DNA of 64,000 nt, taken from NCBI GenBank assembly GCA_030581615.1, contig JAKTTT010000026.1, positions 221,172 through 285,171 of the forward strand, given 5' to 3'. This document shows positions 9,096 to 64,000 of this stretch, piece after piece; position 1 is the stretch's first letter, and each line of letters starts with the position of its first letter. A program made the translations under genes and the position numbers. The DNA is from Alloascoidea africana (Eukaryota > Ascomycota > Alloascoideomycetes > Alloascoideales > Alloascoideaceae). The notes beneath the pieces were generated by a model, which did no database searches, was not told where the DNA came from, and worked only from the letters and a program-made list of their open reading frames with translations.

Positions 9096-9169
9096 GGTCT
9101 CTTGGCCCAGTTGGTTAAGGCACCGTGCTAATAACGCGGGGATCAGCGGTTCGATCCCGCTAGAGACCA
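9096..9169 (+). tRNA. tRNA-Ile (anticodon AAT)
   Basis: This is a 74-nt cloverleaf. The acceptor arm GGTCTCT pairs with AGAGACC and the discriminator is A. The D-arm is GCCCAGTTGGTTAAGGC-like, the anticodon loop is CTAATAA with anticodon AAT, and the T-arm carries GGTTCGATCCC. From memory it is the same as, or nearly the same as, the S. cerevisiae tRNA-Ile(AAU). There is no intron. A 12-T tract follows four bases after the gene. Confidence 0.97.
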
Positions 9170-9173
9170 TCAA

Positions 9174-9185
9174 TTTTTTTTTTTT
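9174..9185 (+). terminator. RNA polymerase III T-run terminator of tRNA-Ile
   Basis: Twelve consecutive T start four bases after the discriminator base of tRNA-Ile, the normal Pol III termination signal. Confidence 0.9.
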
Positions 9186-23407: not shown

Positions 23408-23659
23408 TTGATAGCGATTGAGAAGATCTTGAAGATGGGAAAAAAAAACCAGCGATAGCAGCAGATGGGATCTTTTTATAGACTGTGGGGAGCGCACTAT
23501 CGAATCAGCAGGGTGTTCTCGTAAAGTGGGACCCTGACCACCATCTTGGCAATTTCGGATTGTTGTGCTCGATCTAAAATTAGTTGGAGAATCTAGACAT
23601 TGCTAGCAGAGAAGCAAATCGGTATATACTATGCACACGTAAATAGCTATTTTTACAAT

Positions 23660-24970: not shown

Positions 24971-27430
24971 ATTTATTCATTATCTAAAAGAATGATACTG
25001 AGATAGTTAAAAAAAAATAAAATCAACGCTAGATCGTTGTTGCTGTCGCTGTTTTATTTGTATGAAGCCTACTATTCGGGTTTGTGTGATGTGAAGAAAA
25101 ACGAAGCGAGTCAATAGTGTCCATTTACATGCCAGTAGTGCACCTAAACCTTTTCGCACAGCACTTTCGCCGAGAAATGACAGAATATACCCGTTTCTTG
25201 TCTACTGCTTTCCAAAACAATGGTTAAGGAGTCTGTTTTTCGCTGCTTCATGATTTGTCCGAGTTATTTACCTTGCTCAACCCTGGTTTGGATCCGTGAG
25301 CAAAGGAACCGACAGCTACGCCCTCAATATCTTCTTTTTTAGCCCCTTGGAGTCAAATCTACACTTATATACCGAGATGCTAGGCTAAGAGGAAAAGGCC
25401 ATGGTGTACTTTGGAAACATGAGAGAAAAGCTACATGAACATATCATGGTACATGAAGTCGAATATAATAACAAATAAGCACCCCAGAGGGTTGCATGCA
25501 CAGCTAGTTTTGCATTCCGAATCGCGACAAACAGATTTGAGATCGCTTGCCATCTTGGCGGAGGACAGCAAGAAGGAGCATTGAGAAGCCTGGTCGAGTC
25601 GAGATTGTGGTTTGTGGTTTGTGCTATTTGCTACTTGCCAGCAGGAGAGGCGGACAGTCGTTCTCATATATACGCGTTAGCGGGTAACTGTCGTAACTTC
25701 TGACGAGAGGGTAACTTTAAACAGAGAAGCTTGTCTCCCACCACTTGTGGAGATCATTAAACTTGATCTGAATCTCAGAAGCAAATCTCTGCTTTGAATG
25801 AACAATCTGATTAGACTACTCTGAACGAAGTTATTGTTTCGCGTGTTCTCACTCCAAGCTGATCCGAGTAACCTAGGTATCATCCACAAGGAGTCCGATC
25901 TTTCAGCAGAGGAAGGTAATCCTGACCTGTTAGATTCCTGCTAATCTGAGCGTTGATCCACTCTGTATATATTTAGCTCAACCAGCTTCTCAGCATTGCC
26001 GCTTTCCTGTTCAAACAGTCATCACTTGAATGCATCCCACAGTGCTAACTGGCATAGTTTGTTTGACTTCACTTTCCTCATGGCAGATCTTGAAAGCAAT
26101 TGCTTCTGGGAAGGCCTGACCTCGAATGCAGCGCTGCATTATCGGATCTAAAATGTCAACTGGCTGACAGGAACTGGCTCATAATTCAAAGAGTTGCTAC
26201 TGCTTGACAGATGTATAATGCCAGTACAGATTCGCTTGGTCTTTTTATCATTTTTAGTAACAATGATAGCTGTTGCGAAAGATGAACATTGGGTATCCAT
26301 GTAGCCCTGCATAGTGTTGTGATTTATGCACACGAATCAAGGTGCCAAAATAAGAAATGAGAGTCATAAGAGTGGTGGTTATTTATCGAAGGCTCAAAAA
26401 CAGCAACTGGTCATTTGCTTTCACTAGATGGGGCCACTTGGTAAAATGACATCAATCGCTGCCTTTGTTGCTTTTATTCGCTAACAATTGTTGGCAAATT
26501 CTTTTTCTAACCTCTGGATGATCACATTTAGTGGTGAACTTAGTTCCAAGGAACAATCTTGTAGACAATTATCAGCTTTTTTCAATGCAATGAACGTCAT
26601 TTGTAGTAAAAAGAAAACACGCTCCTGGAAACAATTGGAACCTATCATAAACCTCAATGCGCAAAATCAGATAAAAAGTTGTAATTCCGTACCGATCTGG
26701 AAGCGATGAATCAGATGACTGATATAGTATCTAGAACCTAGTGAATTATGGCTTCAGTGCAGAGAATCTCGATTTGCCACGGCAATGATTTTAAGTCTTC
26801 CAGATGCGGAACTAGCAGTCTCTGTTGAAGAAAGAGGAACAACTGTACCGATCGAACTGACCTTTCTGGTGCTTTACTCCAGAGAAGGGCATTCGCCATT
26901 GGGAGTATTAATGGCAACGATTAAGAAAAACATTGGGCGATAGTGAGGTTTTGGACTTTAGGAGTTATAAAAAAGGCAATACAATTGAACTCTGAAACGC
27001 CATCACATTTTTCGCTGCTGATCCAAGCAGTTCGTGTATTAAACGCTTCTTTCCCGAATTACTCGATACAGAGACAAATGCAATTAATCCTGTAAAGATC
27101 CAGTAGTCTAACGCTCTGTAAATGAGTCAACCTGACGATGACCGTTTTCAACACTGCCAACTCCCCCGATCTGGCCTGGTGGTTCTATTCTGATTTGATC
27201 TTGGTTAATTATGAGAACTTAACCAAATTGCACTCAAAAAGCGATTCCGGTTTGCCCCCAGTAGATATCGATGAGTCGTAGACACTTGATTAAAAAGCTG
27301 GAGGACAAAATCGCCCACCAGACCTTTATACACTCCAAAGCTGAAAGTCCTGTATTTTGCGTATTTAAAAGCCAGAATCTTTCCTCATCTTTCCTTTCTC
27401 TTCAACAATCTCTCACATCCACTTTCTACA
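24971..27430. other. Gene-poor region upstream of the small heat-shock gene
   Basis: About 2.5 kb. Apart from a small Cys-rich frame at 25431-25553 (listed separately), the open frames are short and unremarkable. The last few hundred bases serve as promoter of the small heat-shock gene: an inverted heat-shock element (TTCCCGAA) at 27051-27058 and a TATTTAAAAG box near 27360. Confidence 0.5.
25431..25553 (-). CDS. Possible 40-residue Cys-rich small protein (metallothionein-like spacing)
   Basis: A short minus-strand frame whose N-terminal part reads MASDLKSVCRDSECKTS followed by CACNPLGC: six cysteines in 18 residues with C-x4-C-x3-C-x-C-x4-C spacing. The 14 residues after the last Cys are hydrophobic and look unlike the rest, so the true C-terminus may be shorter or spliced. 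The upstream context is gene-like: a TATATATG box near 25665, an A/C-rich leader, and the good start context CCGCCAAGATGG. I know no homologue and cannot exclude chance. Confidence 0.3.
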   Translation of the reverse strand: MASDLKSVCRDSECKTSCACNPLGCLFVIIFDFMYHDMFM

Positions 27431-28195
27431 ATGAGCTACGAAAACTACAACGCCAACTTTCTCGGCAGTCCTCGACTGCGTCGCGTCGTGACCGCGAGCC
27501 CTACTCCAAGCGCTTATTCTGGTTACTCTTCTCCTCCCTCCTCCTATCAAAGAGGCGCTTATTTTCAGCCCCCCCAAGACAAGACTGGCCCAAGAATCAT
27601 TGATCATGTAAGCCCTAAAAGTCCTAAAAGTCCTAAGACCCCAACCGGCTTCTATGCAGCAGTCGATCCGTGGAGCGGCCAGCCCTATCCTTCTAGTTGG
27701 TCTCCTGTGAAGCAGAATGGGCACCACATTCATAATGCATTGGGTAGGAGAGCCTCTTTTGAAAACATCCAACAGAAAAAGAAGAAAGAGATGAAGAAGC
27801 AGGAGCCATGGGAGAAACTTGAAGCCTTGTCATTTTTGGAGTATCCTGACCACTACCAACTGAAAGTTTCCCTTCCTTCAGATTACTTGGAATCAAACCT
27901 CGAAATTGATACAAACAGATCAAAAAAACAGGTTTTCATCTACGCCAAGTCAAAATACTTTCTCCAAAAGCACTGGCTGAACCAACACAGAATAGTGGAA
28001 AGGGAAAAGCAAATTACTAGAAGGTTCTGGTTGAACTTGAAAGATTACAAGACCAAAGAATGGTTGAGAGATATGAAGTTCAGATATGACCAAAATACTC
28101 ATGAATTGATGATAATTCTGACCAAAAAAGCAGATCCACAAGGCATCCCAGTTGCTGTTCCAATTGGAATACCTTTTTATCCTGTTAGGCATTGA
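27431..28195 (+). CDS. Small heat-shock protein (Hsp20/alpha-crystallin domain)
   Basis: 254 residues. The first 130 are Ser/Tyr/Pro-rich and disordered, with a triple SPK repeat near residue 60 (likely phosphosites). The alpha-crystallin domain spans about residues 138-238. It starts at YPDHYQLKVSLPSDYLESNLEID, continues through an ITRRFWLNL strand, and ends with NTHELMIILTKK, in place of the usual NGVLTITIPK. A short hydrophobic tail follows (GIPVAVPIGIPF), longer than the usual I-x-I motif. Family members are ATP-independent holdases in the cytosol. An inverted heat-shock element and a TATA-like box lie upstream. The order of parts resembles Hsp42/Hsp26, but similarity is low and no orthologue can be named. 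Confidence 0.7.
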   Translation: MSYENYNANFLGSPRLRRVVTASPTPSAYSGYSSPPSSYQRGAYFQPPQDKTGPRIIDHVSPKSPKSPKTPTGFYAAVDPWSGQPYPSSWSPVKQNGHHIHNALGRRASFENIQQKKKKEMKKQEPWEKLEALSFLEYPDHYQLKVSLPSDYLESNLEIDTNRSKKQVFIYAKSKYFLQKHWLNQHRIVEREKQITRRFWLNLKDYKTKEWLRDMKFRYDQNTHELMIILTKKADPQGIPVAVPIGIPFYPVRH

Positions 28196-38857: not shown

Positions 38858-39368
38858 TTTTGCTTTGGAGTTATGTCTAGCGTGATGAAGAGCGAGGAAT
38901 AGCCCACACAATCAAGTTGAGTGATTATGTAAGGGGTTAGTAATTCCCAGTAATTGCTCAGGAGCCCATTTGCTGGAAGAGATGTTTCAGTGTTGCCTTT
39001 TTGGCTGCCTTTGATAAATTTCTAGTAGGTCATTATTGAGGACATCGGCTAGAGGATCAGAATACATAATCTATCTTGCAGTTGTTTTGGCTGTTTGGGG
39101 TCCATTGACAATGTCTATAATCGTATGATCAGCACGAAACTCGCACAAAACCCACATTTTCCTGTCTGGGAAATAATGTCTAGTTAATTGAGTAGTATCA
39201 GTAACCACAAGTCTAGTAATGAAGCTAGATTTTCCGATATTTTCCAACTCACAAGTTATATCTCAAAACCCTCTGATGCCAGCATCCAACCTCCACTTCC
39301 GGAGTTTGGATGTTTCTCACTCCAGCACCCATGATCACTACCAACCACTAGAGTATTCATTTTGAAAC
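38858..39368. other. Divergent RTG2/MIM1 promoter region
   Basis: 511 bp between divergent starts. No specific site I would assign; no gene frame. Confidence 0.6.
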
Positions 39369-39769
39369 ATGAGCTTTTTACCTCTCAATCCTTCAGAGGA
39401 TGGTCAGGGTGTACCAGGTGCCCCTTTCAATAGTGCCGAAGTTAAAGAGGTCCCGGAAAAAGACCTGACCCTGTCTCCTGAATCTTACAAATCTACCAAG
39501 TCAAACCCCGAAGATCTCTTACTGGCTGTGAAGTCAAACAGCTCAATCATTCTGGGATTCATATCAAGAGCAGCCATAAACCTTTTTTTGCCTTTTATTA
39601 ATGGGATGATGCTGGGATTTGGAGAGATTCTGGCTCATGAAATTGGTTACAAGTTTAACTGGGTTGGTGCTAGAGTAAGTTGATTTTGGCATCCAATACT
39701 TTAATGAGAGTTGAGCACTAATTTTGTTTAAAGGTTCATCCAAGAAGAAGGAGGGAGGGAAGATCTTAA
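39369..39769 (+). CDS. MIM1: Mitochondrial import protein Mim1, two exons
   Basis: Joined from 39369-39674 and 39734-39769, giving 113 residues, the same length as S. cerevisiae Mim1. The 59-nt intron has GTAAGT, a CACTAAT branch and AAG. Mim1 with Mim2 inserts alpha-helical proteins into the mitochondrial outer membrane and helps assemble the TOM complex. The single membrane span AAINLFLPFINGMMLGFGEI contains the glycine motif essential for Mim1 oligomers, followed by LAHEIGYKFNW. Exon 2 supplies a short basic tail (VHPRRRREGRS). Without splicing the frame ends two residues after the donor, so a single-exon call would lose the tail. The N-terminal 55 residues are hydrophilic and cytosolic. 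Confidence 0.88.
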
Positions 39770-41364
39770 ACTGGACATGAAGAAAATCGTTATTTATGAT
39801 GTTACAGGGTTTCTTATTATGATGGGAGCGGAATGAAATGGCTTAGAATCCATAACTACAGTATATAGAACTCTAAATTGCAGTCAATTTCATCGACTAC
39901 TGTCTCAAAGCTTTCCGGGCCATATTTCGGGGCCTTAACGAGTATAACTGCCAAAGTGATTACCACTAATATTCATGGATGGCACTCTTAGCTTGTATCC
40001 TAGCGGAAAATCGGAGGTTGATTCACTTTTATTTTTTTACTGCAAATTGTATTGTTCCCAGCTCAATTAACCGAAACTTTACTCCCAATTTAAATTCCAC
40101 TTGTTGGCATTTCCTTTTGTTGCTTAGAACTGATTCAAAAGTTCAACAAGGAGGTGGCGTCTTATGAGTTTAGCAATAAAGTTACGACCGAGTCCGTTCT
40201 AACAATCCAATAGAACTGCAATTGAAGAATATCGCTAGAGATTAAATAAAAGGAGGGCTTCATATCTTTTCGTCCAAAAATTGGCAATCAGAAAGCAAAG
40301 CTGTATGCAGTGTTGGGTGTGCGGGCCTCTTACTTTAACATTCTGTTGAAAGCTCTTTATCCCCTTCTAAAAAGTGACTGTGTTTATAGGTGATACGTTT
40401 AAATGTATTCAAACTTCGGTAACACGATAAAATAGCATGGCATGTTTTTCCTGCATTATCTCTAGATGATGTCAAAGGTGTCTGACCAGATATAGATTAA
40501 GCTGTTGTAGAAGTGTAATCTATATAAGCCAATATTTTCCGTGTGCTGATAGTTGCCGGCTTGCTGAAATAGTATTTGCCACTACTCGCTAGGCTTTCTT
40601 CCTACTTGCAGTTGTTTACCAGAATTCTGACCTCCATAAGCTCGAGTTCCTGTTGTGTACAGGTTGAAGACCAAACATTTGGGAAATTCAACACTCAAAA
40701 AAAGATGTGAATAAGAATATTGCGTATAATGTCTGGAATAAAGCCGTTTTTATCAACAAGTTTGTATCATTTATCACTTTAAATTTTCCGGTCCACAACA
40801 AAATTCTTTTTTTCACGACTTTGACAGGGGTAAAGATATTCACTGACAGATTTTTTTGACAAGCTTAGAAGAGAGTGACTAGAGGAGATGCCGGGCTTGA
40901 TCACGCCAGATGACAGAGAGACATAAGGTAAGCTTGAAACTTCTCAAGCACACCTTTAAAAAATTGTAAGTAGAGCTGTGGAATGATGACAGGAATTTGT
41001 GAATAGCCAATACGCTTGTAAAACACTTTACCTTTATTCGGTAGAATGGTCTGTTGTTTAGTTGAGCGAAAAGAAAGAAATCTTTTTGTGGTAATTATTA
41101 TGAGACGATGTACTTGAAATTGATCTAAATGTATGAGATTCACAGATCACACTCTTTTTAATTCCTGCTTCCACTTGTCCAGGATCTAAGTTATACGTTA
41201 AAAAAGCTCGCTCAAGGAAAACTAGAATGTCGTATCTAAGCGGTCACTCGTTCTGATTCTTTGTTCTTTACCCGCATAAAAAAAGTGTTATCTTCAATGA
41301 GTGTGTTTCTTTAGGCCTGATCCTCACAAAAGTAGCGTCTTATGGTCGTACTCAAAGAAACAAG
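39770..41364. other. Gene-poor AT-rich region upstream of tRNA-Glu terminator
   Basis: About 1.6 kb with no supported gene. One 80-codon frame on the minus strand (40901-41143, no ATG start) has a stretch loosely like the zinc-binding region of Ty3/gypsy integrases. Such elements target tRNA genes, but the resemblance is too weak to call. Confidence 0.45.
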
Positions 41365-41376
41365 AAAAATTAAAAA
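41365..41376 (-). terminator. Pol III T-run terminator of tRNA-Glu
   Basis: Directly after the discriminator base on the minus strand the sequence reads TTTTTA then further T's, the expected Pol III stop. Confidence 0.85.
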
Positions 41377-41448
41377 CTCCGAAACGGGGAATTGAACCCC
41401 GATTTGCCCGGTGAGAGCGGACCGTGCTAGCCATTACACTATTTCGGA
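41377..41448 (-). tRNA. tRNA-Glu (anticodon CTC)
   Basis: This is a 72-nt cloverleaf on the minus strand. Acceptor TCCGAAA pairs with TTTCGGA and the discriminator is G. The D-arm region is TAGTGTAATGGCTA, the anticodon loop reads CTCTCAC with anticodon CTC, and the T-arm has GGGTTCAATTCCC. The body resembles yeast tRNA-Glu. It is the CTC isoacceptor, which reads GAG, not the more common TTC type. No intron. Confidence 0.95.
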
Positions 41449-43125
41449 CGTTTTTTATTTTGAAATTTTGAACAACAATATCTCGAAAAGCATTGCTGCT
41501 GTTCTTGTATTTCTAAATTTATTCAATATTCGTTTTGTTTATACACTTCTTCTCAATTTCAGAGACAATACACTGTAGATATGAAATCTTTAGTATAAAT
41601 AATTAGCTATATAGGGAATCTGTCTAAAGATGCTCAGATATAGAAAGGTAGACGTGAATGATATCTTTCTGTCAGGAAACTTTTAAAGAGAAGCAAATAA
41701 AAAGAGGAAGTTCTGCAAGTAAAATGAAGTAAACAATGATCAATAAAATTAGTCAATAAGGAAATATTGATGAAATAGGACTCATTGAGTCATGTTGTAA
41801 GAACTGCGAATACCACTGCCACTTGATACTGTACAGTGGAACGGAGCTCAGAAATGTTCTCTTTTCCACGACGTTATAAAACCTTTCTCGAAAGGTTGCG
41901 CAAGTAGGTAGAACTTACTTGCAGATACAAAATGGAGCATATTCAAAGTTTTTTATCCAACGTTACCGGTATTTGAGTTCCTATTCGGCCTTTCTTCCTC
42001 TTGTTCGCAGTTGGCTACTGCTTCTTGCTGAGAATTTTTGATAGCTTTTCTACAGTAACTGTTAAGTGTTACATGCACTACTGACTTTTACTTTTGAATT
42101 TGGTAGTATATTGTTCCCCTATAGTGCCGGAAAGGAAGATTAAAAAGCTTTCTATACGCCACCCCTGATCTCTTCTTCATGCCACCTATTGATAACTGTT
42201 GAATCACGACTATAACCATCAGAGTGGAGGCTATGTTCTCTCACATGTCAGAAAAAGGTCTAGGTTATAGGCTTTGTATTGTTTTTGTTTACGCCTCTTA
42301 TTAGGGGAGTTTGAAGAGCATCAAATTTATAATTTCGATAGAAAATATACTGCAAAATATCAGAACCCAGTCTATTGGCACCACCTCCTAACGTGATAAA
42401 ATCAAAAGATATAGCGATATTGCTATTGCAAACTACAGGTCGGCTCTGGGTGAAGCATATGTTGTGTAATATGGGAAACTGATGCCAAGCTTTTGCATCA
42501 GTTCAACGTTGAAAGCGCCCTTGAATCTACTGTTATCGTCTGAACTGAACTTGTTCTTGCTATTTTTGTCTAGCATTTGGGTCCGGGTTGACTTGGCTCA
42601 AGTGCGCCGCTATTCATCTAGCATAGACATTCCTTCTAGATTCAACAGCTATGTCGGAGAAATAGTGAGTCCGTGGCTTCTCATAAATTGGTACCTTTAG
42701 CTTTTATTAATTTACTGCCCTTGAAATTTGTTCGCCTGAGTCAATAAAATTGCCCAATAGAATTCCTTATCTTGACCTGTACTTGAATTGTGTTGTTTCC
42801 AACTGTTTACCATCTGACTGGTTATTCCCCATTTGCCTTTACATTCAAACTAAAAGTGCTCATTGTGGGAATCTTTGATAGCTTCGCTGACACCAGATGA
42901 TGCTGATAATGAATCGAGTAAAGTAGATAAGGGCCCTGAGCGAGATTGGAAACAATAAGGCAAGAACGCACTTGGATAAATGACAGAACTAGACGATTCT
43001 CATAGGCACTTTATCGTTTCACTCCAAGATACTGTCACCCTGCCTTTGAGTGTGGTGTGCGGATGTAAGCGGTATCTTCTGGGAAAAGAGTAATTACCAG
43101 ACACTAACCTTCTCAAGACCATCAA
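41449..43125. other. Gene-poor AT-rich region between tRNA-Glu and POL32
   Basis: No supported gene. The longest frame is a 72-codon plus-strand ORF at 42482-42700, with no motif. The last few hundred bases are the POL32 promoter. Confidence 0.5.
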
Positions 43126-44882
43126 ATGAGCAAAGAGGCAGAAAAATATCTCTCACTGAAGTTACTAAATGAAGGAAAGCCTGTATGAGTTTACAGATTT
43201 TTTTATGCTAGCTTCACCAGATTGCTGACTACTCTTTAGGTGACGTATCGATTATTAAGTCGCGCTATTGGCGTTTCTGTGTCAGACGCGAAACAGTAAG
43301 TTGGACAAACCTCCACCTTTCGCAACTGTTTGAGGGATATGCACTAATTCACTTGCCTAGTCATTTATTTTCATTTTATGAAAACCATAATCGACAGAGC
43401 CCTGGATCTATACATGCCACATATGCGTTAACAGGAACGCCAAAAGTTGAAAACGCGAAAGTAGATGAGAGCGAGCTACTTCTTTCAACAATTGTACTGT
43501 GCTCAGAAAAGTCATTAGATGGTATGGCCAATTTGTGAATGAGCTGATAAGATTCAATATCTAATTAACATTGCAAAGCGGAGAAATCCAAGTTGAAGAA
43601 GATTTTCTCGATTCACATATATAGTGTTGAGCCCTCGCCATTGAAAGTGAGCAACTGGACTATACCTGCTTTTGGCATAATTACTGACTATATTATAGGA
43701 TATCAGCGAACTTTCAGCTGTTTCTCGAGAGATAACGGAAGAGTACGATTATAAAATTGACGAGTCCAAGTGCAAGTTGTATGGCATCATTAAACCACCG
43801 GCATTCTTGAAAGTATGTTTATATTATGTCCCAGATTCAGGGAAAGTCGAGCTAATAGAAATAGGAAACCAAAAATGGGCCAATGAAGGCTCCCGAGAAT
43901 TTTTCGATAGGACATGCGTCGAAATCAAAAGCGCCTTTCACATCGAAGAGCGCTACGCTGAGAAAATCAAAGAGCGAGACGAAGAAGAGCGCATCTCCGT
44001 TTTCGTCATTGTCCAAGTATGAACAGATTAAAGCCCGAGCGGCAAACAAAAGGGCGGAAACAGATCATACAACCGATAAGCTCAAAGACAGTTCTAAAAA
44101 TTCAACGATTCAGAAGCCTCATCCTCCAAGTAATGGTGATCTCGACAAGCCGAGGAAGTCGTCACTAGTCGAATCTCTTGAATCGAGCAGGAAAAGACCG
44201 CGTAAAGAGGCAAAGGACCTATTTGTCATCTCTAACGAAGATACAAACGAGGAGGAACTAGATGAAGATATTGAAATGAACCATGAAAAACGAAGGAAAG
44301 AAGAAGAAGATAAAAAGAAAAATCAAGAACGCTTGGAAAAGTTATTTGATGAGGATGAGGACATTGATATGGGTGAGTTTATTTTGAAGCAGGTATTGAG
44401 AAATTGGTTCTAACTGTTGAGTCCAAGACCTTGGCCTTCTTGACGAAGAAGATGAACCTCTTCAAGATGAAGACAGTGGGAAACAAAACAAGATTGTTAC
44501 CTCTGATAGTGATATGAAAGACTCAATCGGTTCTAGTCTTGCTTTATCCGAGTCAGAACCAATTACCGAAGGCGAAGATAATGATCTTCCCTCGGGCATG
44601 GAAACTAGGAAAGCTAGCATAACCCCAGACCCTAATGCAGCAAAACAAGAGAAAAAGCCTACTTCTAAGGTATCATATAAGGTAGATGAGAGAGGGTATC
44701 TAATAACCAAGTTTGATAATTCTTATTCAGATACAAGCTCTACCTCCACCGGAAGTGCTGTGTTACAACGGTTAAAAAGCGCACGGGAAAAACCGACTGG
44801 CAGTTTGAATGGAAACGGTAAAAAGACGAAAAATAAGAAATCAAAGACTCAACAATCTACCCTCTCAACTTTTTTCAAATGA
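43126..44882 (+). CDS. POL32: DNA polymerase delta subunit 3 (Pol32/Cdc27), seven exons
   Basis: Exons: 43126-43182, 43240-43295, 43361-43521, 43579-43646, 43699-43812, 43865-44372 and 44422-44882, giving 474 residues. All six introns (49-65 nt) have GT donors and AG acceptors and close in phase, with CTGAC or CTAAT-like branches in most. The N-terminal domain emerges only after joining: VTYRLLSRAIGVSVSDAK, then HATYALTG, then KKIFSIHIYSVE, matching the winged-helix part of Cdc27/p66 that binds the polymerase B-subunit. The long middle is Lys/Glu/Ser-rich and disordered. The protein ends in a canonical PCNA-binding box, QSTLSTFFK. Pol32 supports processive and translesion synthesis and break-induced replication. 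The last acceptor could shift by 6 nt (GAG or CCAAG). Confidence 0.86.
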
Positions 44883-45868
44883 GAACTATGTACAATGGAA
44901 GCTCAAACAGTACTGGTGGTTGGAGTCTTATTAAATGACAATATGATCTTCTATTCCAGTCACTGCCATAACCGGCATTTAACATAGTGTTGTTCATTCA
45001 TGCTCCACGGGATTGAACTTTTTCCAACTTTTGAATTTCGGCATTTTATTCCAACTATACTACAAACGCTTTGGAGTTATTACCAAGATCAATGTCTTCA
45101 CAAGTAATATGTCTGCAACAGTATCATAAAGTTATAGCGTTATAACATCTCGAGATTATGATCTTATTTGAAGGGCTTGGAGTTTTAATTGAGTAGGAAA
45201 GTAACGATAGCCAACATACAAGAATGAATCAAACTTGTAATAGTTTCTCTAAAACAGGTATATTTAAGATTGGTCTTTCTTAAACAAGGGAATACCTTAG
45301 TTGTAGATGAAGGAACTGATTTGCGATTACAAAAGTGTGAATTGTGATATTGATAGATAACCATAATACTTTCGGTTCTATGTTTAGAGAAGGCATAAGT
45401 AGGAGAATAAAAAGAGGTGGTCTCTGTGTCTATTGTCTAGTGCTTGCCTGGCGTTTGGTGATAATATGAGAGCATAGAGGTGAAGCTTGGTTCTCTTTAA
45501 CTGAGGTGCATTAAAGGCTTGAGTCAGTCTTATTGGAAGTGAGATCCCATGCTATTCTTTTTTTTTTCAATCCTTCTTCCATTATCTCTTTTGCCTTTGG
45601 TTCTAATTATTTGATCTAAGTAGATCAAAACGATCTTTGAAGGATTGTAATTCTCTTGAATTTCTCGTAGGTCCTTACAGATACCTTGTTTTTTGTAACC
45701 TTGTTACATTATCCTGTTATCTTAAGCATATTACTATTTTTTTTGCTTTATTTATCAAAATTTGATAAGATAACTTAATTGATTATCTATTTCTATTCTT
45801 TTGATCTCTCCTGGAATTTCATTTTAATTTCCAATATGGTCTAGCCTAAAATTTTAAACCCAAAAAAG
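44883..45868. other. Intergenic, AT-rich, no supported gene
   Basis: Holds the POL32 3' flank and T-rich DNA upstream of tRNA-Arg. Nothing gene-like. Confidence 0.55.
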
Positions 45869-45940
45869 TTCCTCGTGGCCCAATGGCAAGGCGTTCGCCT
45901 ACGAAGCGAAAGATTCCAGGTTCGACCCCTGGCGGGGAAG
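45869..45940 (+). tRNA. tRNA-Arg (anticodon ACG)
   Basis: This is a 72-nt cloverleaf. Acceptor TTCCTCG pairs with CGGGGAA (one G-T pair) and the discriminator is G. The D-arm region is GGCCCAATGGCAAGGC, the anticodon loop is CTACGAA with anticodon ACG (read as ICG), and the T-arm carries GGTTCGACCCC. The sequence closely resembles yeast tRNA-Arg(ACG). No intron. Six T follow three bases after the gene end. Confidence 0.96.
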
Positions 45941-45942
45941 AA

Positions 45943-45948
45943 TTTTTT
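45943..45948 (+). terminator. Pol III T-run terminator of tRNA-Arg
   Basis: Six T residues just after the tRNA 3' end. Confidence 0.85.
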
Positions 45949-46350
45949 GAACTTTCAGTATTTTGATTTTCTCGAGATGTTCTCTTTTTTAGACACCTAT
46001 ACAATATTCAAGGGACTGTTTGACTATCCCTAACTTTTAGTAGAGTTTCTGGGTTGCCAATCCATTAATTAATGGAATGGAGAACTACTATAGTAGGGAG
46101 CTCTGTGGTGCTCGCGTAATGGACAGGCAAACACAAGCGATGGTCTGCTTTGCTAGAGATTGTTTTTCCATGGGTAGCGATATTGTGAGTGAATAGCTAC
46201 GAGAATAGAAATCTAGAAAATATCGAGTATTGCCTCTTTTTAAAATGGCCGTTCATTGAGTTCAAGCCGTCATTGTACTTGTTTCAACTCCTCTAGATTT
46301 GACTATCGATTCGTCTAAAACTTCTTTATCGATATGATCCAATCTTTTAA

Positions 46351-47178
46351 ACTTTTGCTTTTTTAATTTTGAAACCTAGCACAAATTTCAACACTGAAAT
46401 CAGTTTGTTGTTTAATGACATCACCCCAAGTATGTATAGACCCTTCCCCAAGGATGGCACTGTAGTTCGCATGCTCCAAATTAAAAACACTGACCCATAT
46501 AAGCACATTGATCAGGTTCCGTTCTATACGTTGAATTTTAACCTACATCATTTCATTCACAATCAGGCTTTTTGAAGGAGTTTCTACCTGGTGAAGGCAG
46601 TGCTAAAAAAGCATGCTTGGCATCCCTAGACGTCTGGTTAGATTCCAACGAATGAACTCGGAGATACTTTTCTTGAAACAATCCCTTTATTTTGACACTT
46701 TTCGATCATTAACAATTTTGGGTGAAGAGGGTATACGAAAAAGAACCACATTTGCAATGATAGAAAGCAATTTTTGGGACTACACAACTATAGTACGCAT
46801 TTAGATCTGGTTTTTCCTTATGTGCGTTTAGAAGTAATGCAGAAGCACTTGACTTATCAACCAACGTTTACTAACAATAATTATGTTTATGAGATCGAAG
46901 TGATTGGGGAAAACTTTGGATATGCTTTATCTAAAGATTTAGACGCCTACCCCCTTTTGACTAGGAATGACGTTTTCCCCCATGTTTTTACTGTTTCGTG
47001 TTGGCGTTTTAACATCTGGGTTTATCGTCCAGTTTTTCCGGGTGGTTTCAAGAGTTTTGGAATATTCTGTTCCAGTGTTTGTATTTCTGTGGAAAAATCG
47101 TTGTACCTATGCTCTACCCCAACGAAAGGCAAAAAGCAAAACAGAAAACGTGTGACTTTATACATAGACAAGCTCTAA
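46351..47178 (+). pseudogene. Probable frameshifted relic of an unrecognised protein gene
   Basis: Four protein-like segments follow one another with almost no gap but in different frames. They run from about 46351 to 46575, 46566 to 46652, 46613 to 46804, and 46774 onward to about 47000. Their translations are well mixed in composition (for example RPFPKDGTVVRMLQIKNTD, LKEFLPGEGSAKKACLASL, NSEILFLKQSLYFDTFRSL and YVYEIEVIGENFGYALSKD), unlike the Lys/Asn/Phe noise of nearby spacers. Each shift has the same sign (-1), and no introns fit because the segments abut. A fifth segment in another frame (about 46985-47155) looks membrane-like. I do not recognise the family. A recently disabled gene is the simplest reading; chance is the alternative. 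Confidence 0.4.
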
Positions 47179-47504
47179 ACATGAAATAGATGAAGATCTC
47201 TGTGGACGAGAAACGGGGGTCGCACTAGGCCGAAGCTCTGGACTTTTCTCTCCAGGATGGCCAACCAGCCTCGCGATAACGGATCGCAGACTCCATGGGG
47301 TCCAGACCCCGATCAGCGAGCCAGCGAAGAACCGAAGAACCGAAGAACCAGCGAGCGAGACAGAAGATCAAACCAATTCGAAGGTTTACGAAGCAGGGAC
47401 TCTGTGAAAAGTTCAGGGGTCGCCGGGGGGCTTTAGTTCTGCCAAACGGCAGCCAGCCCCGGACACAACTGGCGTGGTATTTATAGAACGGGCCCAGGAC
47501 CAAG

Positions 47505-47510
47505 TATAAA
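47505..47510 (+). promoter_or_regulatory. TATA box of the GPI wall-protein gene
   Basis: TATAAA 57 bp before the start codon, in a GC-rich promoter that also has a TTTATAG-like box at about 47479-47486. Confidence 0.5.
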
Positions 47511-47566
47511 ACTCCTCCACTGCCTCCTGATCTCCACCCCAACTCCATATCCAACTCTCAACAAAC

Positions 47567-48394
47567 ATGAAATTCGCGACTTCTCTTTACACTGGCACAC
47601 TGGCACTTGCCTCGCTGGCCGCAGCGCAGCCTCTGGTCCTCACGAAAACCGTCTACGTTAACGCGGAGGGAAAGGTGGTCGAGCCGACCCCTACCTCGCA
47701 AGAGGAAACGATTGCTTCCACCTGTGTGCCTCACACCGCGACCTGGCTAGGGGGCAATGGCCATCTGTGGTCGACGACGGTGTTTGCCTCGCCCGAGGTC
47801 GTCACAAACGAGTGCTACGGCAGGGGAACGTGGGTCGTTGGTGAAGACGGATCAACCAGTGTCTCCAGCTTCTACAGCTACCCCATTTCGACCTACTATA
47901 CTTCTTTCGAGACCACCCAGCACGACTCGGGCTCCACCTGGGACTTCACGACGACCTTCACTTACTACGTTCCCACGTCGGTCGAGTACGGCAGCTGCGA
48001 GCTCTCCACGTCGACCTTCACGACGGGCACCTACACGGTGACTCGCACGGTGGGCAAGTGGACTGGAACCGAGTATGCGTTCTGCACTCCCGAAACCACT
48101 GCGACCGTCACTTTGCCCAGCACGACTTACACGACGACCGAGCACGAGGTAGAGATCCACACGGGAGAGGCCGGCGTCATTGACGATGCCAGGGCAAAGG
48201 TCAAGCGAGACGACGACGACCATGATGATGATGATGACGACGACGACAAGGCTTTTCACCAGTCTGCCTCCACTGTGACCCGAACGCAAACCGCTTCGTC
48301 TTCTTCCAACGCCGCAGTGGCTCCAAGCCAAGCTTTTTCGCTTTATCCCGTTGCTGCTGGACTACTTTCCGCTTTGTCCGTTCTCCTTCTCTAA
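47567..48394 (+). CDS. GPI-anchored cell-wall protein
   Basis: 275 residues. A signal peptide (MKFATSLYTGTLALASLAAA) leads into a Thr/Ser/Tyr-rich body with a few cysteines (TCVPHTATW, NECYGRGTW, YGSCELSTS and AFCTPETTA), then an acidic His/Asp run (about residues 215-227) right after a KR dibasic site. Next come a Ser-rich spacer and a hydrophobic tail (FSLYPVAAGLLSALSVLLL) typical of GPI attachment, with the likely omega site in the SSSNAA region. The likely mature location is the plasma membrane or the glucan wall. Codon use is markedly richer in G and C at third positions than in neighbouring genes, which often marks high expression in yeasts. It does not match a named family that I can identify. 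No intron. Confidence 0.8.
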   Translation: MKFATSLYTGTLALASLAAAQPLVLTKTVYVNAEGKVVEPTPTSQEETIASTCVPHTATWLGGNGHLWSTTVFASPEVVTNECYGRGTWVVGEDGSTSVSSFYSYPISTYYTSFETTQHDSGSTWDFTTTFTYYVPTSVEYGSCELSTSTFTTGTYTVTRTVGKWTGTEYAFCTPETTATVTLPSTTYTTTEHEVEIHTGEAGVIDDARAKVKRDDDDHDDDDDDDDKAFHQSASTVTRTQTASSSSNAAVAPSQAFSLYPVAAGLLSALSVLLL

Positions 48395-52897: not shown

Positions 52898-54172
52898 ATG
52901 CTCAAACCGCCACCATTGTCGCCATCTTCATCTTCATATTACGCTATCGCATCGCTGGCTTCTCGTCCCCCGAAAAGCTCCCCTAGCCTGCTGCGTCGCT
53001 CCCCTTCATCCCCAATCAGATCCACTCACTCAAAGCCTCCGTCGGCCTCACCGCATCACTCAGATCTATCCCTATCATCATCTTCACAATATCCTACAAA
53101 TTCAAATGTCCCATCAGCAAGCCGATGGAAATCGGGCCCCAAATGGGAGGCTATCAAACACGCTAAACCCTTTTCCGACTTTTTAACCGATACCTTCCAC
53201 CGCAAACACGACTACCTCCGAATCTCAATAACCGAACGATGTAATCTACGATGCCTATATTGCATGCCAGAGGAAGGAATCGAACTCTCTCCTCCTTCGC
53301 ATCTCCTTTCAAAACACGAAATCATTTACCTTGCAAAACTTTTTGTAAAACAAGGTGTGACCAAAATCAGACTAACCGGTGGCGAGCCTACCGTTAGAAA
53401 AGACCTGATCGATATCGTCGCGGGCCTAGGTGAACTGCGCCCGCTGGGTCTAAAACAAATCTGCTTGACTACAAATGCCATATCTCTACATCGCAAACTT
53501 GAGAAACTGCAGCAAAACGGCCTTACTGCCCTCAATATCAGCCTCGATACTCTCATTGAGGGCAAATACATGCTCGTAACCAGAAGGAAAGGCTTGAGTG
53601 CAGTTCTAAAATCTATAGATAGAGCCTTGGAATTGGACATCCCCAAGGTTAAAATCAACGTTGTTGTAATGCGCAATTTCAACGAGGATGAGATTCTCAA
53701 TTTTGTTAAACTGACAGAATCAAAAAGACTGGAGGTCCGTTTCATCGAATATATGCCATTTGATGGTAACAAATGGTCCGAATTCAAAATGTTTCCCTAC
53801 AAAGAAATGCTCTCTTTGGTCCAATCCCATTATCCTTCCATCTATAGCATCCCCTTTGCCAGAGGTGAAACTTCCAAAACTTTCCAAATTCCCGGTTTTT
53901 TGGGCAAAATCGGCTTTATAACATCCATGACCTCCGATTTTTGCAGCTCATGTAATAGACTGCGGATCACAAGCGACGGTAACCTCAAAGTTTGTCTATT
54001 TGGTGATAATGATCATGAAGTCTCTTTAAGAGACATGATTAGAAAAAATTGTACAGAACAGGAGTTGTTGAATGTTATTGGCGCCACCGTAAAGGATAAA
54101 AAGGAGAAACATGCTGGAACTTCAGAGTTGGAAAAGATGAAAAATAGACCTATGATTTTAATAGGCGGATAG
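52898..54172 (+). CDS. GTP 3',8-cyclase MoaA/MOCS1A (molybdenum cofactor biosynthesis, step 1)
   Basis: 424 residues, intronless. MoaA is a radical-SAM enzyme that, with MoaC, turns GTP into cyclic pyranopterin monophosphate. The N-terminal 80 residues are Ser/Pro/Arg-rich and likely a mitochondrial targeting peptide. The radical-SAM cluster is ERCNLRCLYC (Cys115, Cys119, Cys122), followed by LTGGEPTVRKD near residue 160. The second 4Fe-4S site is DFCSSCNRLRITSDGNLKVC (Cys349, Cys352, Cys366). The protein ends in the Gly-Gly tail (RPMILIGG) needed for activity. No MoaC domain is fused, unlike Aspergillus CnxABC. S. cerevisiae lacks the whole pathway, so this yeast should have at least one molybdoenzyme (nitrate reductase, xanthine dehydrogenase, sulfite oxidase or mARC). 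Confidence 0.95.
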   Translation: MLKPPPLSPSSSSYYAIASLASRPPKSSPSLLRRSPSSPIRSTHSKPPSASPHHSDLSLSSSSQYPTNSNVPSASRWKSGPKWEAIKHAKPFSDFLTDTFHRKHDYLRISITERCNLRCLYCMPEEGIELSPPSHLLSKHEIIYLAKLFVKQGVTKIRLTGGEPTVRKDLIDIVAGLGELRPLGLKQICLTTNAISLHRKLEKLQQNGLTALNISLDTLIEGKYMLVTRRKGLSAVLKSIDRALELDIPKVKINVVVMRNFNEDEILNFVKLTESKRLEVRFIEYMPFDGNKWSEFKMFPYKEMLSLVQSHYPSIYSIPFARGETSKTFQIPGFLGKIGFITSMTSDFCSSCNRLRITSDGNLKVCLFGDNDHEVSLRDMIRKNCTEQELLNVIGATVKDKKEKHAGTSELEKMKNRPMILIGG

Positions 54173-57021: not shown

Positions 57022-59197
57022 ATGCTTTTGGAAACGGTTGTGCTCGTTTGGTATATGACTTCGTTAACCTTATACTTAGAAACATTAAAATGTTTGCTAG
57101 TAAAGAGCTGCCTTGTAATGAAAGCACACTCCAATAATTGTTCCAGTTATAAATTCTGTTGCTTGGACTTGGTTCCTACATTCTACAGGCCTTTGCAAGA
57201 GTTTTGCCTACTCTTCTTTTTTTGCTGCTTGTTGCATGGGTGTATTGATATTGACATTTTGTATCATGTGCGAATGCAATAAGAATGGTGTCAACAAAAC
57301 TGTCTGGAGAAGTCAAACTTGACTCCCAGACTCAGAATGCAGAAAGTGATCAAATCATTGTCTATTTTTATGGTGCAAATATTGAGTTAGAACCATCCTT
57401 CAATCTGTTTGAATCTTGTCAGCAATTTTGGTAAGTACCAGAAGCAAGTTATTTCTCTAGTTTCTTCAGACACCTTTGACCATGTTTTAAAGTGCTCAAT
57501 CGAGTCTGCGGTAATGCTCCTCATGCTCGCATGCATTTATTCACGGAACAAACCCCAACGACTCGTCATCAATATCAGTAGTATCAAATAGGTGAACAGT
57601 ATGGGTTGAAATGAATCATTACAAGTTGTTTGAGTGGCAATAGTGACGTTAAAAATCATCGCAAAAAGCAACTAGAAAACGGAAAGTTTTCCAGGAAGCG
57701 TGTCCTCATCTATCGATTTCAAGTGTTTGTAATGCGTTTTATCGATTCAACATTAAGATTTCTCATTGGGACACTTTCAAAAAAGATTCGTTTCACAAAA
57801 AGACAGTAGGGAAAATGACTTGCTGGCTGCCTTTTGATACCTCGCGATGAGACAACTCCAACTACAGGAAAAATTTATAAAGATGATACCACCAAAAGCG
57901 TTGAACCTCGCAAATATATCTTGATTGTTTCAGCAATTTTGACATCATTGCTACAACCTATAAAACTTGAGTACGGCCGCGTCCTCTCCAAAAAGCGCTT
58001 GAATATTCCCTGCTCAAAAACAATCAATTATACTTGGACAAAGTACCAGTGTACTCGATAATGGAGAGCATGGTTTGAAAAATAAAACTCTGAATCTTGT
58101 CTCGCTTCATTCCGAGATACTCGGCTATTTAAATGTCTAACTTGTCAAGTCTCATAACTCATGAATCATTGGAATGTGAAATCTTGACTGCGAACGGAAA
58201 TATCTACGCTCTTGTCTTGGGTAAAAGTCCTTCAACCCCAAAGAATATGTGCTCTCTCTTCAATTACTCAGTCTTCAGTTCACATACCTAGGTTCTTTCA
58301 GTCCTTATCACGACCGTGTCAAGGCAGAAAAAAACTCTAATTATTGGTCCCAGTTTGTACTAGAATCGTGGATAGATCTCGTGTCGTGATAGGAAACAAA
58401 TTCTTCAAAACCTTGGTTCGCTGGCATCTGCTTTGAATAGAATTGAACTGTTTTACAATCTCCACCCTTACGCGATCCAGCTGGAAGCTTAAATCCAATC
58501 ACATCGTACCACACCCTCCTTATATACTTTAACAATAATGCCGTTTGGCCTTTTGAGATAAACATGTCAAAGAAAAGCAACGAGTAAAGAAAGAAAGTGC
58601 GGTGTACTTTTTTATTTTCTACGGTTGTTGGTCATCTCAAAGAGCTATTAAACAAGCAAAAAAGTGCATTCTGTGTTTGCTGCTACCACTCTGGTCCATC
58701 TCAAGGAATCAAAACATCACCGTTTCACACAATTTTTGTTTAGCTAGCCTTTTTGATAGGATGTTTGAATAAACCCATGGGAACTGTATTTTGGGATGCA
58801 GAACTTTTGAATACACGCCTGTGATTATTCTCATGATTAAAGTTTAAGAAAAAATAGGTTGGCTAACGATTCTAATGAACTTGCACAAGCTCGACGATGA
58901 CCTATTGAGACTTGACTGGTTTTCAAAGTTGTCCAAAGCATGGACAGCTTTTATCATACAAGGCGATTCATGGAAAACCCGATTAAATAGTGAAGGGAGT
59001 AAAATGGGAAGGACCCTGTATACATAAATCTTAATTGTAGTGGAACGGCTCAGAACGTTATTGTATGGAGCTAAGCATGAACTTTTTCCAAAATATCAAA
59101 CAGTGATCCTTGATTAGAAGAAACAATTTTGTAGCTAAGACTTTTTTAGCAACAGGGATTTTTACTTCAACACTATTTTCACATCAAAAGTAAATTG
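57022..59197. other. Gene-poor AT-rich region
   Basis: 2.2 kb. Frames are at most about 86 codons and none has a recognisable domain, signal peptide with following body, or consistent splice chain. A 75-codon frame at 57834-58061 has balanced composition but no match known to me. Confidence 0.5.
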
Positions 59198-59206
59198 TAT
59201 AAAAGG
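59198..59206 (+). promoter_or_regulatory. TATA box of the small GPI-protein gene
   Basis: TATAAAAGG, 99 bp before the ATG at 59297; a strong match to the TATA consensus. Confidence 0.65.
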
Positions 59207-59240
59207 CTATCATTTTCTTACAACAACAACCATCTGTAAA

Positions 59241-59291
59241 TTACAATCGCTTACTACTCTTACAGTACCAACTAATATTTACAATCGCTTA
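59241..59291 (+). repeat. 13-bp direct repeat in the 5' leader of the small GPI-protein gene
   Basis: TTACAATCGCTTA occurs at 59241-59253 and again at 59279-59291, the second copy ending five bases before the start codon. It is too long for chance in such a short leader. It may mark a regulatory RNA element or a short duplication. Confidence 0.8.
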
Positions 59292-59296
59292 TAATA

Positions 59297-59794
59297 ATGA
59301 AATTTTCAACTTCAGTTTTGGCTCTTTCTTTGGCTCAGATCGCTCTCGCCGAGGGAGAGGAAACCACTTTGACCATCACCAAGGCCACTGAGTTCCAGTA
59401 TTGCAACACTCCTTACACCGTCAATGAACCCACCACACTTGCTATTCCTTCTTGCACTGATGAATGTACCGCTGATAAAATCCATTGCGATTTCTGGCCT
59501 TTTGGAGTCATTGATGTTCGCCCATCAGTGACACCTGTTTCGTCTCTTCCTACTCCCGGCCCTGATCCAGGATACAACACCACAGAAACCGACACCGACG
59601 TCATCACCGTTACTTCCTGTTCAGACAACAATAGCACCACCACTTCTACTCAGACCTGCACTGACTGCTCAACTCCAGTACCAGTTCCCAACCCCAGCCC
59701 CGAGCCTATTAGCTCATATGAGGGTGCTGCTGCCAAAATTGGAGCTGGCTCCATTTCTGCAGTTCTCGCTCTTGCGGCTGTTTACTTTATTTAA
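59297..59794 (+). CDS. Small GPI-anchored cell-wall protein
   Basis: 165 residues. The signal peptide is MKFSTSVLALSLAQIALA. The mature part has eight or so cysteines (QYCNTPYTV, SCTDECTADKIHC, TSCSDN and TCTDCSTPVP), a Pro/Thr spacer, N-glycosylation sites (YNTT and NNST) and a C-terminal hydrophobic tail (GAGSISAVLALAAVYFI) preceded by small residues suited to GPI attachment. It resembles the short structural wall proteins of yeasts in the SED1/CCW-like class, but no named family is certain. Third-position C preference and a strong TATA box suggest high expression. The TTVTETDC-like and Cys-Pro motifs recall the C-terminus of the large surface protein at 21575-23407. Confidence 0.82.
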   Translation: MKFSTSVLALSLAQIALAEGEETTLTITKATEFQYCNTPYTVNEPTTLAIPSCTDECTADKIHCDFWPFGVIDVRPSVTPVSSLPTPGPDPGYNTTETDTDVITVTSCSDNNSTTTSTQTCTDCSTPVPVPNPSPEPISSYEGAAAKIGAGSISAVLALAAVYFI

Positions 59795-62700
59795 ATCTTT
59801 TGGCCAATCAATTGTTTCGACTAAGTTTTAAATTTCTAAATTTTCTTATCGTCTTTCTGTTAAAGCCTTTGGTTTCTTTGTTTCAAGGATAACAATTTAT
59901 GATTTATACCATTTGGGACAATTCTTCCCTCTTTAGCGCACTTTCAGCTGTAAAGCTCTTGGTGAACTTGAATATTGGACTTGTCATGATTTCACTTTTG
60001 TTTTGTTCTGTATATATAGACTTCTGTAGTATACTGGACTGAAATATTAAAGCATTTATCTTTCTTTTCTTTGCTGTTGAAGATAGACACTAAATTTTCC
60101 TTCCTCGAAATTTAGTTTTTAACTACAGTTGTGTTTTGAAAACTAAATTGTTGAGATATATCGCCATGCTTGTAAGCTGGGGACGAAATTTCTCTTGATG
60201 ATTCAAAAAACGTTCAATTTGAAGTGTTTTTGTAAACAATCATATTGAATGATTTTTCGAGTGACTTGAATAGTACACACTGGTATCTCTGTGCCAAAAA
60301 GAAAAGGCACCGGTTGAAACAGTCTATACACAAGTTTTTATTAATGAATTCGAATTTCACAATATCTATTGTTTGAGCATTATCAAATAATCTAAACGAA
60401 CTCGAGGGAGAACATTTAGCGTACTATTCCCTGATTTTTGAGCATCCTATTTCCTCAAGTTGTAAGCATTATGATCCCTACAATTGAAACATGCAAGAAA
60501 AATCAAAAGACTGGCCATTTGATGTATATTAGTAATGGCACATTTTCATCTAGTGATTTGGGTGAAAGATTCTGTGAAAAGCACTAGAACTGATACTTTT
60601 ACGAAATTCTAATTTGAACTTACAGTGACCCTTATCCAAACCTGAGACCCTTGATTGAGTGCGATCGTTTTTTAACTTGTTAATAGAATGGCTTATGTTT
60701 TAGAGCATTTGCTAATGGAAGAAAAATTCTTTTGGCCTCGTGATTCTTCTTTCCTACTTGATTTGCTGGATACACTTGTAAACTTTGTGAGAAGAACATT
60801 GAGCACCCAATTTTAAGTGCTATATTCTTCCTCTGTGTGATGTTTGTGGCATGGGATATTTTATAGATCAAAAGCTTGTGTGTTAACAGAATGCATTCAA
60901 AAGGTTCAATCTTGGTTTGTTCCTCAAAGATATATCAATCGGATTGAAAGACATCACTCTCTTGCTTTGTTCAGAGCTTCTCATTATTCACTATTGCTCT
61001 TCGAACTCCCGTGGATGCTTTGACACAAGGCGCGGTGATTGTAGATTCTATATGCCCTGGCAAATAAAATATTATTTCTAAGGAAAGCCAGGTATTTGGA
61101 AATGAATTTCCTTTGGTAGTTTGCTGTTAATACTTCAATTGTTGAAATCCATTTACGCGTTTCTTGAAACAGAATAGACGTCATTTCTTTCATAGACTCT
61201 AGGAGAAACTATTGGCCATGCGTAAACCAGCCAGAGTATAAGCAAAATTTGGTTATTCTTCTTTTAAAACCCATTCTTTAGTCAATTCCTAGTACCATGA
61301 TCTTGTCTTGTATACACTAAAAGGAAAAGTAGTTTGATGTTATGCTCAGCTTTCCCACAACGGACTGATACGGTTAATTTTTATAATTTGGAAGAGTAAA
61401 GCTAATAGCACCTTCATATAGATCCACTGTGAAATGAGAAGGTGTAGAGAAATAGCTATGGTGATTACTTGTAAGGAATGGAGGTTCATGCCCCCAAAGT
61501 GTGTACGCATCACCTATTGCTGAACCACCAAGTTGCCTCAAAACACAAATTTCAGAGTCCAAAGCATGTAATTCCATTCTTCAGTGAGAGTAAATCGGAT
61601 AGAAATCGAATGCTAATAGAACTCCTTTGAAGACGGCAAGGCTTATTAAGAAAAGCTTTTTGTCTCGTCTGACTTTAACCAACTGTCAAAACTTCTATGA
61701 CTCGCTTTATGCGACTAATTTAGATCCATACTATTCATGCTCGAACATTTTATCTTATGCTGAACACATACTTTTTTCAAGGTCAAGACAATCCGCGAAG
61801 GCTGTTCATGGCACTGCCAAAAACAAGCAAAATTCGCTATACTTGCTAGCCAAATATTTTGATACTATAGGTGTTATGCCGTTTTTATTACCATGACAAT
61901 GTAACTCCCCCATTATGGGCGCATGCTTCATAAAGGGAGAGCTGGTGGAGTTTTCTGAACGATGTTATTGGAATTTCTGCTAACCAAGGTTCTCAAAACA
62001 GCTCAGAGTGAGACCATCTTCATAAATCATTATGCTCAAGCATCCCACTCTTTATCTATTATAGTTGGTACCTGTTTCTCTCAGATCATTGCCTTCCTTG
62101 ACAATCTACATCTGTTTCCGCCTATCTTCCAAATGGTCAAATGGACACCGTGTTCTAACTTTATCAATAGCGCAGCAGCAGCCAAGGATTTAAAGAGAAG
62201 CGTGTTGAAAGTCGATCACTTGCAAATGCTACAAATCGCCGCACTTTCTGGCGGTTGAGTTTGGAGAAAGAATCCCAACCAACTTTTTCCGAAATACAAG
62301 GTTATCTCGTTACTCATCACAATGATCCTTTAGAGAGACAGTCGAAGCAGCGGATAACTGGATAGAGAATAAAAACCAGACGGTATCATTCGCACAAGTG
62401 AACGGAAAAGCTCATGTTGCTGATATTTGTCAAAGCTGGATATTAATGATTGAAACAGCTTTACCTTACAAGGAAATATGTGACAAATCAAGCTGCTTAA
62501 GGTCTGAAACAAATGGAAGAGGCATGTAACAGTTTCCAGTGATTGCGGCGTAAGAGTATTTGAAAGGAAAGGAATTGAATTTCCACCAGGGTTGTTAACT
62601 TGATAAAGATGCACAGACTAAACTGTTAGAGAAAACTATTCTCTTTAGTAATTAACGTAGACATCATATCTCGTCATCTCATTTCTCTGTATCAAGTTAA

Positions 62701-64000
62701 CGTGCTAACTTGCACTTGCGCTTTAACTGATTCTTTTGTACAAATTCAACCCTTGAGAGTAAATTAGGACTGGTGTGGAGGAGATGAAATATTCTTCTGG
62801 TGAAATAATGCAGTTCTTCCATTTTGATTCATATGAGAAATGAGAAGAGCTTTCTCCATATCACGCAGGATAATTGGATACGAAGCGATTGTCTTTGAAT
62901 ATTAACAGTGTTCTTTTGTCAGAAACAGCGAATCTTCTAGATTGCCAGTTTACTCTTTGTGAAAAGAGCATACCATTTTGTTGGTGGGGAAGATTTAGAG
63001 CACACATCCCATTGGGACTTGTTCATGAATGGTGAAATCCACAGAACTAAGTGTCACCAACAGGTCCTAAATCTGTGAATCTGAGAGGTCATTCATCGTA
63101 TCAGGGCAAATATAGTTGCTTAATGGGCTAGAATCAGTAGTTTCGAACAATGTGGCCAAGCATATAATCGATGTTCCCTCCTTGTCCTCAAACCTAAAGA
63201 ACCATCTCAAACAGAGAGGTTGCTTGACCATACAGATCCATGTACTTCTCGATTATGATGTCACCTCAAGGCTCTTCAGTGTGAGATTTAAAGAGGCAGA
63301 AGCCTGCTCTGTTTCTTCTTTCAAAGTCCTCCGATCAATTTTTATTGGAGCTTGTTCTTTGGCGTTGAACACAATTTGAAGGCACAAATATGTATGCTAA
63401 AGCGAATTTTAGCCAACAGGAGGCCATACTCACAACAGTAACGAGGAAGCAAAATGCGACACAAGCTTCCAAACTTCCAAACAAATCTCTAAACTTCACT
63501 GCCTGTACTCTCTAAGCTGAATATTATCCTTGTTATTATATGTTTGCACGAAATGGACATCTGGTGTTGCGTAGGCTCAATTGTGTGAAATCTATTTGTA
63601 GTCAGGGGCACCATCAATATCAAGTCAAGTCGACAAGCAGTTTCAATCTCGCCAATATGCACAAGACGTCCGTGATCCTGATTGACAGTATGTTAATCGA
63701 TAACTCAAGTCTCGGACACTGACCGCTTTCCGCAACCGTTCAACTCCTTAGTCGACGCGTCAATATCGTTACCTCTCGCCACAAGCGCCCATTTCTTCAA
63801 GAATCTAGGCAGCAAAGGCAAGAACCAAAACTCGTGCATTTGAGCGTCCCATCACTCTTCATAATAGTGTGAGTTGGCAACATAGGCTATTGTCTGTCAA
63901 ATGGGTGGTGTATGTTGAGGGAATGGAGGAGGAGAAAAATCTGGTGTTGGTGTGGAGGAGGTTGGCAGTATAGGTTAGAATTATTCAACAGTGCAGCTAA
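59795..64000. other. Long AT-rich gene-poor region to window end
   Basis: 4.2 kb without a firm gene. Plus- and minus-strand frames reach at most about 98 codons. Near the right edge, a minus-strand 44-codon frame (63705-63839, MHEFWFLPLLPRFLKK...) and a following 62-codon open stretch without ATG (about 63505-63690), separated by plausible splice signals, could be the 5' exons of a spliced gene, but no homology supports it. Confidence 0.45.

Follow-up and report, generated by a model that had tools for sequence, protein, structure and literature searches.

The 64-kb stretch of DNA considered here (the window) carries on its plus strand, between 43126 and 44882, a gene that homology identifies as POL32 (CDC27/POLD3), encoding the third subunit of Pol delta, and that is divided into seven exons by six short introns. 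Exon 1 (43126..43182, 57 nt) opens with the ATG at 43126 and encodes MSKEAEKYLSLKLLNEGKP, of which residue 19 is the start of the match to the Pfam CDC27 profile (PF09507). It is followed by intron 1 (43183..43239, 57 nt, GTATGA...CTGAC...TAG) and by exon 2 (43240..43295, 56 nt, VTYRLLSRAIGVSVSDAK), matched in frame to PF09507 2-21 at 13.6 bits, below the cut-off. Intron 2 (43296..43360, 65 nt, GTAAGT...CTAAT...TAG) leads into exon 3 (43361..43521, 161 nt), which starts with HLFSFYENHNRQSPGSIHATYALTG, and intron 3 (43522..43578, 57 nt, GTATGG...CTAAT...AAG) splits the first codon of exon 4 (43579..43646, 68 nt, AEKSKLKKIFSIHIYSVEPSPLK). Beyond intron 4 (43647..43698, 52 nt, GTGAGC...CTGAC...TAG) lie exon 5 (43699..43812, 114 nt, DISELSAVSREITEEYDYKIDESKCKLYGIIKPPAFLK), intron 5 (43813..43864, 52 nt, GTATGT...CTAAT...TAG) and exon 6 (43865..44372, 508 nt), which encodes the charged tail and matches PF09507 161-329 in frame at 16.1 bits, again below the cut-off. 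Intron 6 (44373..44421, 49 nt, GTGAGT...CTAAC...GAG) precedes exon 7 (44422..44882, 461 nt), which ends on a TGA at 44882. The joined coding sequence comprises 474 codons with no internal stop, and the first-pass annotation, which had proposed seven exons and six introns of 49-65 nt over this interval, had every coordinate exact. It had also remarked that no frame here exceeds about 176 codons; indeed, the longest open reading frame listed (the list holding those of at least 150 aa) is 176 aa, at 43883-44413.

The identity of the gene is carried by the spliced product as a whole. The 474-aa protein matches PF09507 at 5e-40 and 138.7 bits, against a curated cut-off of 24.5, over positions 2-440 of the 443 in the profile, which is the Cdc27/POLD3 check that had been suggested for it. 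A six-frame Pfam scan of the unspliced region recovers CDC27 in pieces only, the best at 44.8 bits. A phmmer search, run with a copy of the product bearing one extra Q, found 'DNA polymerase subunit delta-3' (3e0j_B, which we take to be human POLD3) at an E-value of 2.4e-9 over query residues 15-124. The N-terminal domain of the POL32 family has a winged-helix fold, and residues 15 to about 123, which include VTYRLLSRAIG, HATYALTG and SIHIYSVE, align with POLD3. The earlier claim of a winged-helix core and a PCNA box stands as far as these N-terminal motifs and the C-terminal QSTLSTFF are concerned, and the fold would be that of the family. In exon 7, DERGYLIT (44685..44708, plus strand) agrees by eye with D(D/E)-G--(V/I)(T/S), the consensus for a DPIM. 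It is followed, one residue ahead of the stop codon, by the PIP box QSTLSTFF (44853..44876, plus strand); PMC545490 gives this consensus and places the Cdc27 PIP box at the extreme C-terminus. The profile match, the POLD3 alignment and these two ordered C-terminal motifs bear out the assignment to POL32/Cdc27.

The broken frames of the raw DNA could also be read as those of a decayed POL32 pseudogene, in which the apparent introns would be chance interruptions. We find this barely credible, because the breaks vanish on removal of 49-65 nt segments that bear donor, branch-like and acceptor motifs, because the spliced protein has its full length and keeps the DPIM and the PIP box, and because no other CDC27 copy above the cut-off was found in the genome. 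The genome searched comprises 23,180,953 bases (23.18 Mb) in 138 contigs, and PF09507 exceeds its cut-off in one place, the POL32 locus; the remaining matches are the gene's own exon 2 (15.5 bits) and a place on contig C11 (11.1 bits). A DNA search of the genome with POL32 likewise returned a single match, to itself.

How far the exon structure exceeds chance can be judged in several ways. An open frame is weak evidence by itself, because with the six donors of the first-pass model 648 of the 32,928 possible sets of acceptors (the numbers of acceptors for each intron multiplied together) stay open to the end; homology decides. Two other open models with different acceptors score 103.6 and 35.2 bits against PF09507, as opposed to 138.7 for the model given above. 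For introns 1-4 we enumerated 1600 choices, each intron taking each acceptor or no splice, cut the products at the first stop, and scored the 182 distinct products of at least 40 aa against a POLD3 fragment. The proposed junctions came out on top at 46.2 bits; products altered at intron 1, 2 or 3 reached at most 27.9 bits, and those altered at intron 4 alone scored 43.1-45.2 bits, changes there costing little because the fragment ends nearby. All six donors fit GTRNG, a motif found at 556 of the 6761 GTs of the window on both strands, a count that is not independent evidence because the donors had been chosen partly by motif. A CTRAY element lies within 22 nt upstream of the acceptor in all six introns, compared with 361 of the 8209 AGs in the window (4.4%). 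On this sequence evidence, we predict that the POL32 transcript is spliced.

Within this gene model, the chances are about even that POL32 is real while one or two of its intron boundaries differ from those given, most likely at intron 6, which would then end at 44427 instead of 44421 and yield a protein of 472 aa. The acceptor at 44421 is a GAG, a rare acceptor, while introns 1-5 all end in TAG or AAG; 44427 is the next AG, an AAG served by the same upstream CTAAC, and would make the intron 55 nt long and the protein two residues shorter. The ab initio gene finder described below picked 44427 in all three of its runs, with weights that penalise GAG. Against this, the PF09507 score leans slightly to 44421 (138.7 bits, against 136.4 for 44427), and the first AG downstream of a branch point is frequently the one used. 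The two ends score too near to each other to be separated. For intron 5, two later acceptors give 132.7 and 128.8 bits, a loss of 6-10 bits.

The gene finder was trained on the long open reading frames of the same sequence and run on the window and on a 264-kb sample made up of the window and twenty 10-kb stretches. In both runs it placed introns 1-4 of POL32 exactly, missed intron 5, and added false POL32 introns, three in the window run and four in the 264-kb run. The latter predicted 71 genes with 30 introns, in a run made without a control. When the finder was retrained, it called 16 introns in 69 genes and reduced POL32 to its 3' part, with the N-terminal half lost, whereas a decoy run, in which the splice signals had been complemented, yielded 23 introns in as many genes; since the decoy produced more introns than the real signals, we draw no intron density from it. 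A count of the signature GTRNGN...CTRAY...YAG spanning 40-90 nt over the 264 kb is equally uninformative on intron density, because the reversed-sequence control exceeded the real count (136 against 102 matches). A plain scan for open reading frames misses this gene, as had been claimed, and our simple gene finder rebuilt it only in part. A conserved replication gene in pieces of 56-508 nt can thus be passed over by frame length, and in such yeasts no gene should be declared absent from a catalogue until annotation has taken splicing into account.

The related suggestion, that other gene-poor stretches might hide genes of short exons, did not hold in the stretches scanned. Six-frame Pfam scans of five of them (38930-43101, 44900-47568, 5000-9978, 57023-62001 and 25000-27431; 19.2 kb in all, with 62002-64000 among those left out) revealed no hidden short-exon gene by Pfam, a method that genes without Pfam domains escape and that did find CDC27 when applied over POL32 as a positive control. 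The one match over the cut-off in these 19.2 kb is an unspliced TOM13 gene of 104 aa (Mim1-type outer-membrane protein; 39369-39683, plus strand, 1.7e-23), and one sub-threshold match is AglB core-like (19.8 bits against 27). Elsewhere in the window, the region of a tRNA-Glu gene (about 41350-41476) has eleven other matches in the genome at 73-99% identity, and the minus strand at 21575-23497 encodes a predicted protein with GTDPGDDN-type repeats, adhesin-like by eye. A relative of the segment 21600-24358, 72% identical to it, lies where the same contig begins, and contig C94 carries further pieces. A MoaA-like molybdenum cofactor biosynthesis protein (Radical_SAM and Mob_synth_C) is encoded at 52898-54172 on the plus strand; most budding yeasts are not known to have this cofactor pathway.

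The nature of the host bears on how unusual these introns are. For the genome's uL3, among the best 60 of 73 matches, the ten highest score 699-728 bits, and nine of these ten we take to be from Candida, Kluyveromyces or Saccharomyces, the remaining one (9spj) being left unassigned. Further down the same 60, a shorter chain, presumably from yeast, scores 656 bits, and others at 643-653 bits are presumably from Chaetomium, S. pombe and Neurospora. For the 49-kDa subunit of complex I, NUCM entries that we take to be from Yarrowia score 820 bits, 9iho, likewise left unassigned, 808, and another, presumably from Chaetomium, 774. These scores of two proteins, with the organisms of the entries presumed, point to a budding yeast. 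Six introns would be less noteworthy if the host were instead an ascomycete of the filamentous or fission-yeast-like kind, and a 23-Mb genome with short introns would suit such an organism; we consider this very unlikely, because nine of the ten best uL3 scores belong to presumed budding yeasts and exceed those of the presumed Chaetomium, S. pombe and Neurospora entries, and because the 49-kDa subunit scores best against presumed Yarrowia entries and lower against the presumed Chaetomium one.

Both marker proteins are encoded twice in this genome. The two 49-kDa genes (C18:89091-89903 and C34:228183-228995) share 82.8% DNA identity, and the two RPL3 genes (C31:50336-51385 and C24:234505-235554) share 89.5%. 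These diverged pairs may stem from a partial duplication or from hybrid ancestry. Whole-genome duplication was considered on the strength of these pairs and set aside, as a DNA search with 18001-58000 gave no parallel copy of the region; what it returned were scattered permease, homocitrate-synthase-like and AMP-binding relatives, together with a single local block at about 21.3-24.4 kb.

Taking the host as a budding yeast, we inspected ten conserved genes of the genome by eye, naming POL31, POL12, PCNA, DPB2 and POL3 from PF04042, PF00705 and PF00136 together with presumed resemblance. With six introns POL32 has the most, and five others also seem to be split. The POL31-like gene has at least two introns, 54 and 51 nt long, whose removal leaves the exons in frame; the POL12-like gene apparently has one of 52 nt, seen unjoined; the PCNA gene loses its frame at a GTATGA that follows about codon 14; and one and the same GTAAGT interrupts the two RPL3 copies, which thus have this intron position in common. 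The DPB2-like gene, with a 661-codon frame and a Pfam match that crosses stops, may be split too. The two 49-kDa genes have open frames of 505 and 492 codons; that of the POL3-like gene runs to 990. In the 264-kb sample, 69 non-overlapping ATG-initiated frames of at least 250 aa span 102 kb (39%), hence many genes must be unbroken or nearly so. We do not follow the earlier view that POL32 marks an intron-rich lineage; a single gene cannot do so. That six introns are extreme for a budding yeast is right against the average, POL32 having about 4.2 introns per kb (six in 1.4 kb of coding sequence) where one survey (PMC8476143) puts the mean for the Saccharomycotina at 0.04 and Lipomyces starkeyi at 1.1, and it needs qualifying by lineage, the basal yeasts being known as intron-rich. 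Indeed, published accounts credit L. starkeyi with about three introns per gene and describe Nadsonia and Tortispora as intron-rich too (PMC5499181), and they liken the intron density of L. starkeyi to that of the Pezizomycotina (PMC7138796). Our search for literature on POL32 and introns found no paper on a multi-intron POL32, which we do not claim as absence.

We are highly confident that this is the single-copy POL32 of a budding yeast, probably an early-branching one, from whose transcript six short U2-type introns would be removed and whose protein would work as it does elsewhere. By analogy with the family, Pol31, the B-subunit, would be held by the N-terminal domain, the DPIM of the long charged tail would make the contact with Pol alpha, and PCNA would be bound by the final residues, so that the protein may link Pol31, Pol1 and PCNA to one another within Pol delta. 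One could go further and imagine POL32 and POL31 as members of a small set of replication genes that keep ancestral introns, many other genes having lost theirs, with splicing setting the dose or timing of the Pol delta accessory subunits. We regard this as highly improbable. POL32 is an ordinary conserved gene, and its intron load is high and of a kind already known from basal yeasts.

Set beside the Pol32/Cdc27/POLD3 family, the gene described here is alike in its near full-length profile match, its POLD3-alignable N-terminal domain, its DPIM and C-terminal PIP box, and the one copy found; it differs in being cut by six short introns, the introns of other POL32 genes lying outside this comparison. 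Among the basal Saccharomycotina, Geotrichum candidum offers a parallel in architecture only. Its GC content differs (48%, against 42.4% in the window), and according to PMC4479816 and PMC5499181 35% of its genes are split, with 0.56 introns per gene, a median intron of 71 nt, and little conservation of either the 5' splice site or the branch point. Its genome, at 24.2 Mb, is close in size to the 23.18 Mb here, short introns are common to both, and so is a large non-coding share, 45% of that genome being coding and long unbroken frames taking up 39% of the 264-kb sample (PMC4479816, PMC5499181). The introns of POL32 raise no new question by themselves, and they fit the published picture of the early-branching budding yeasts.
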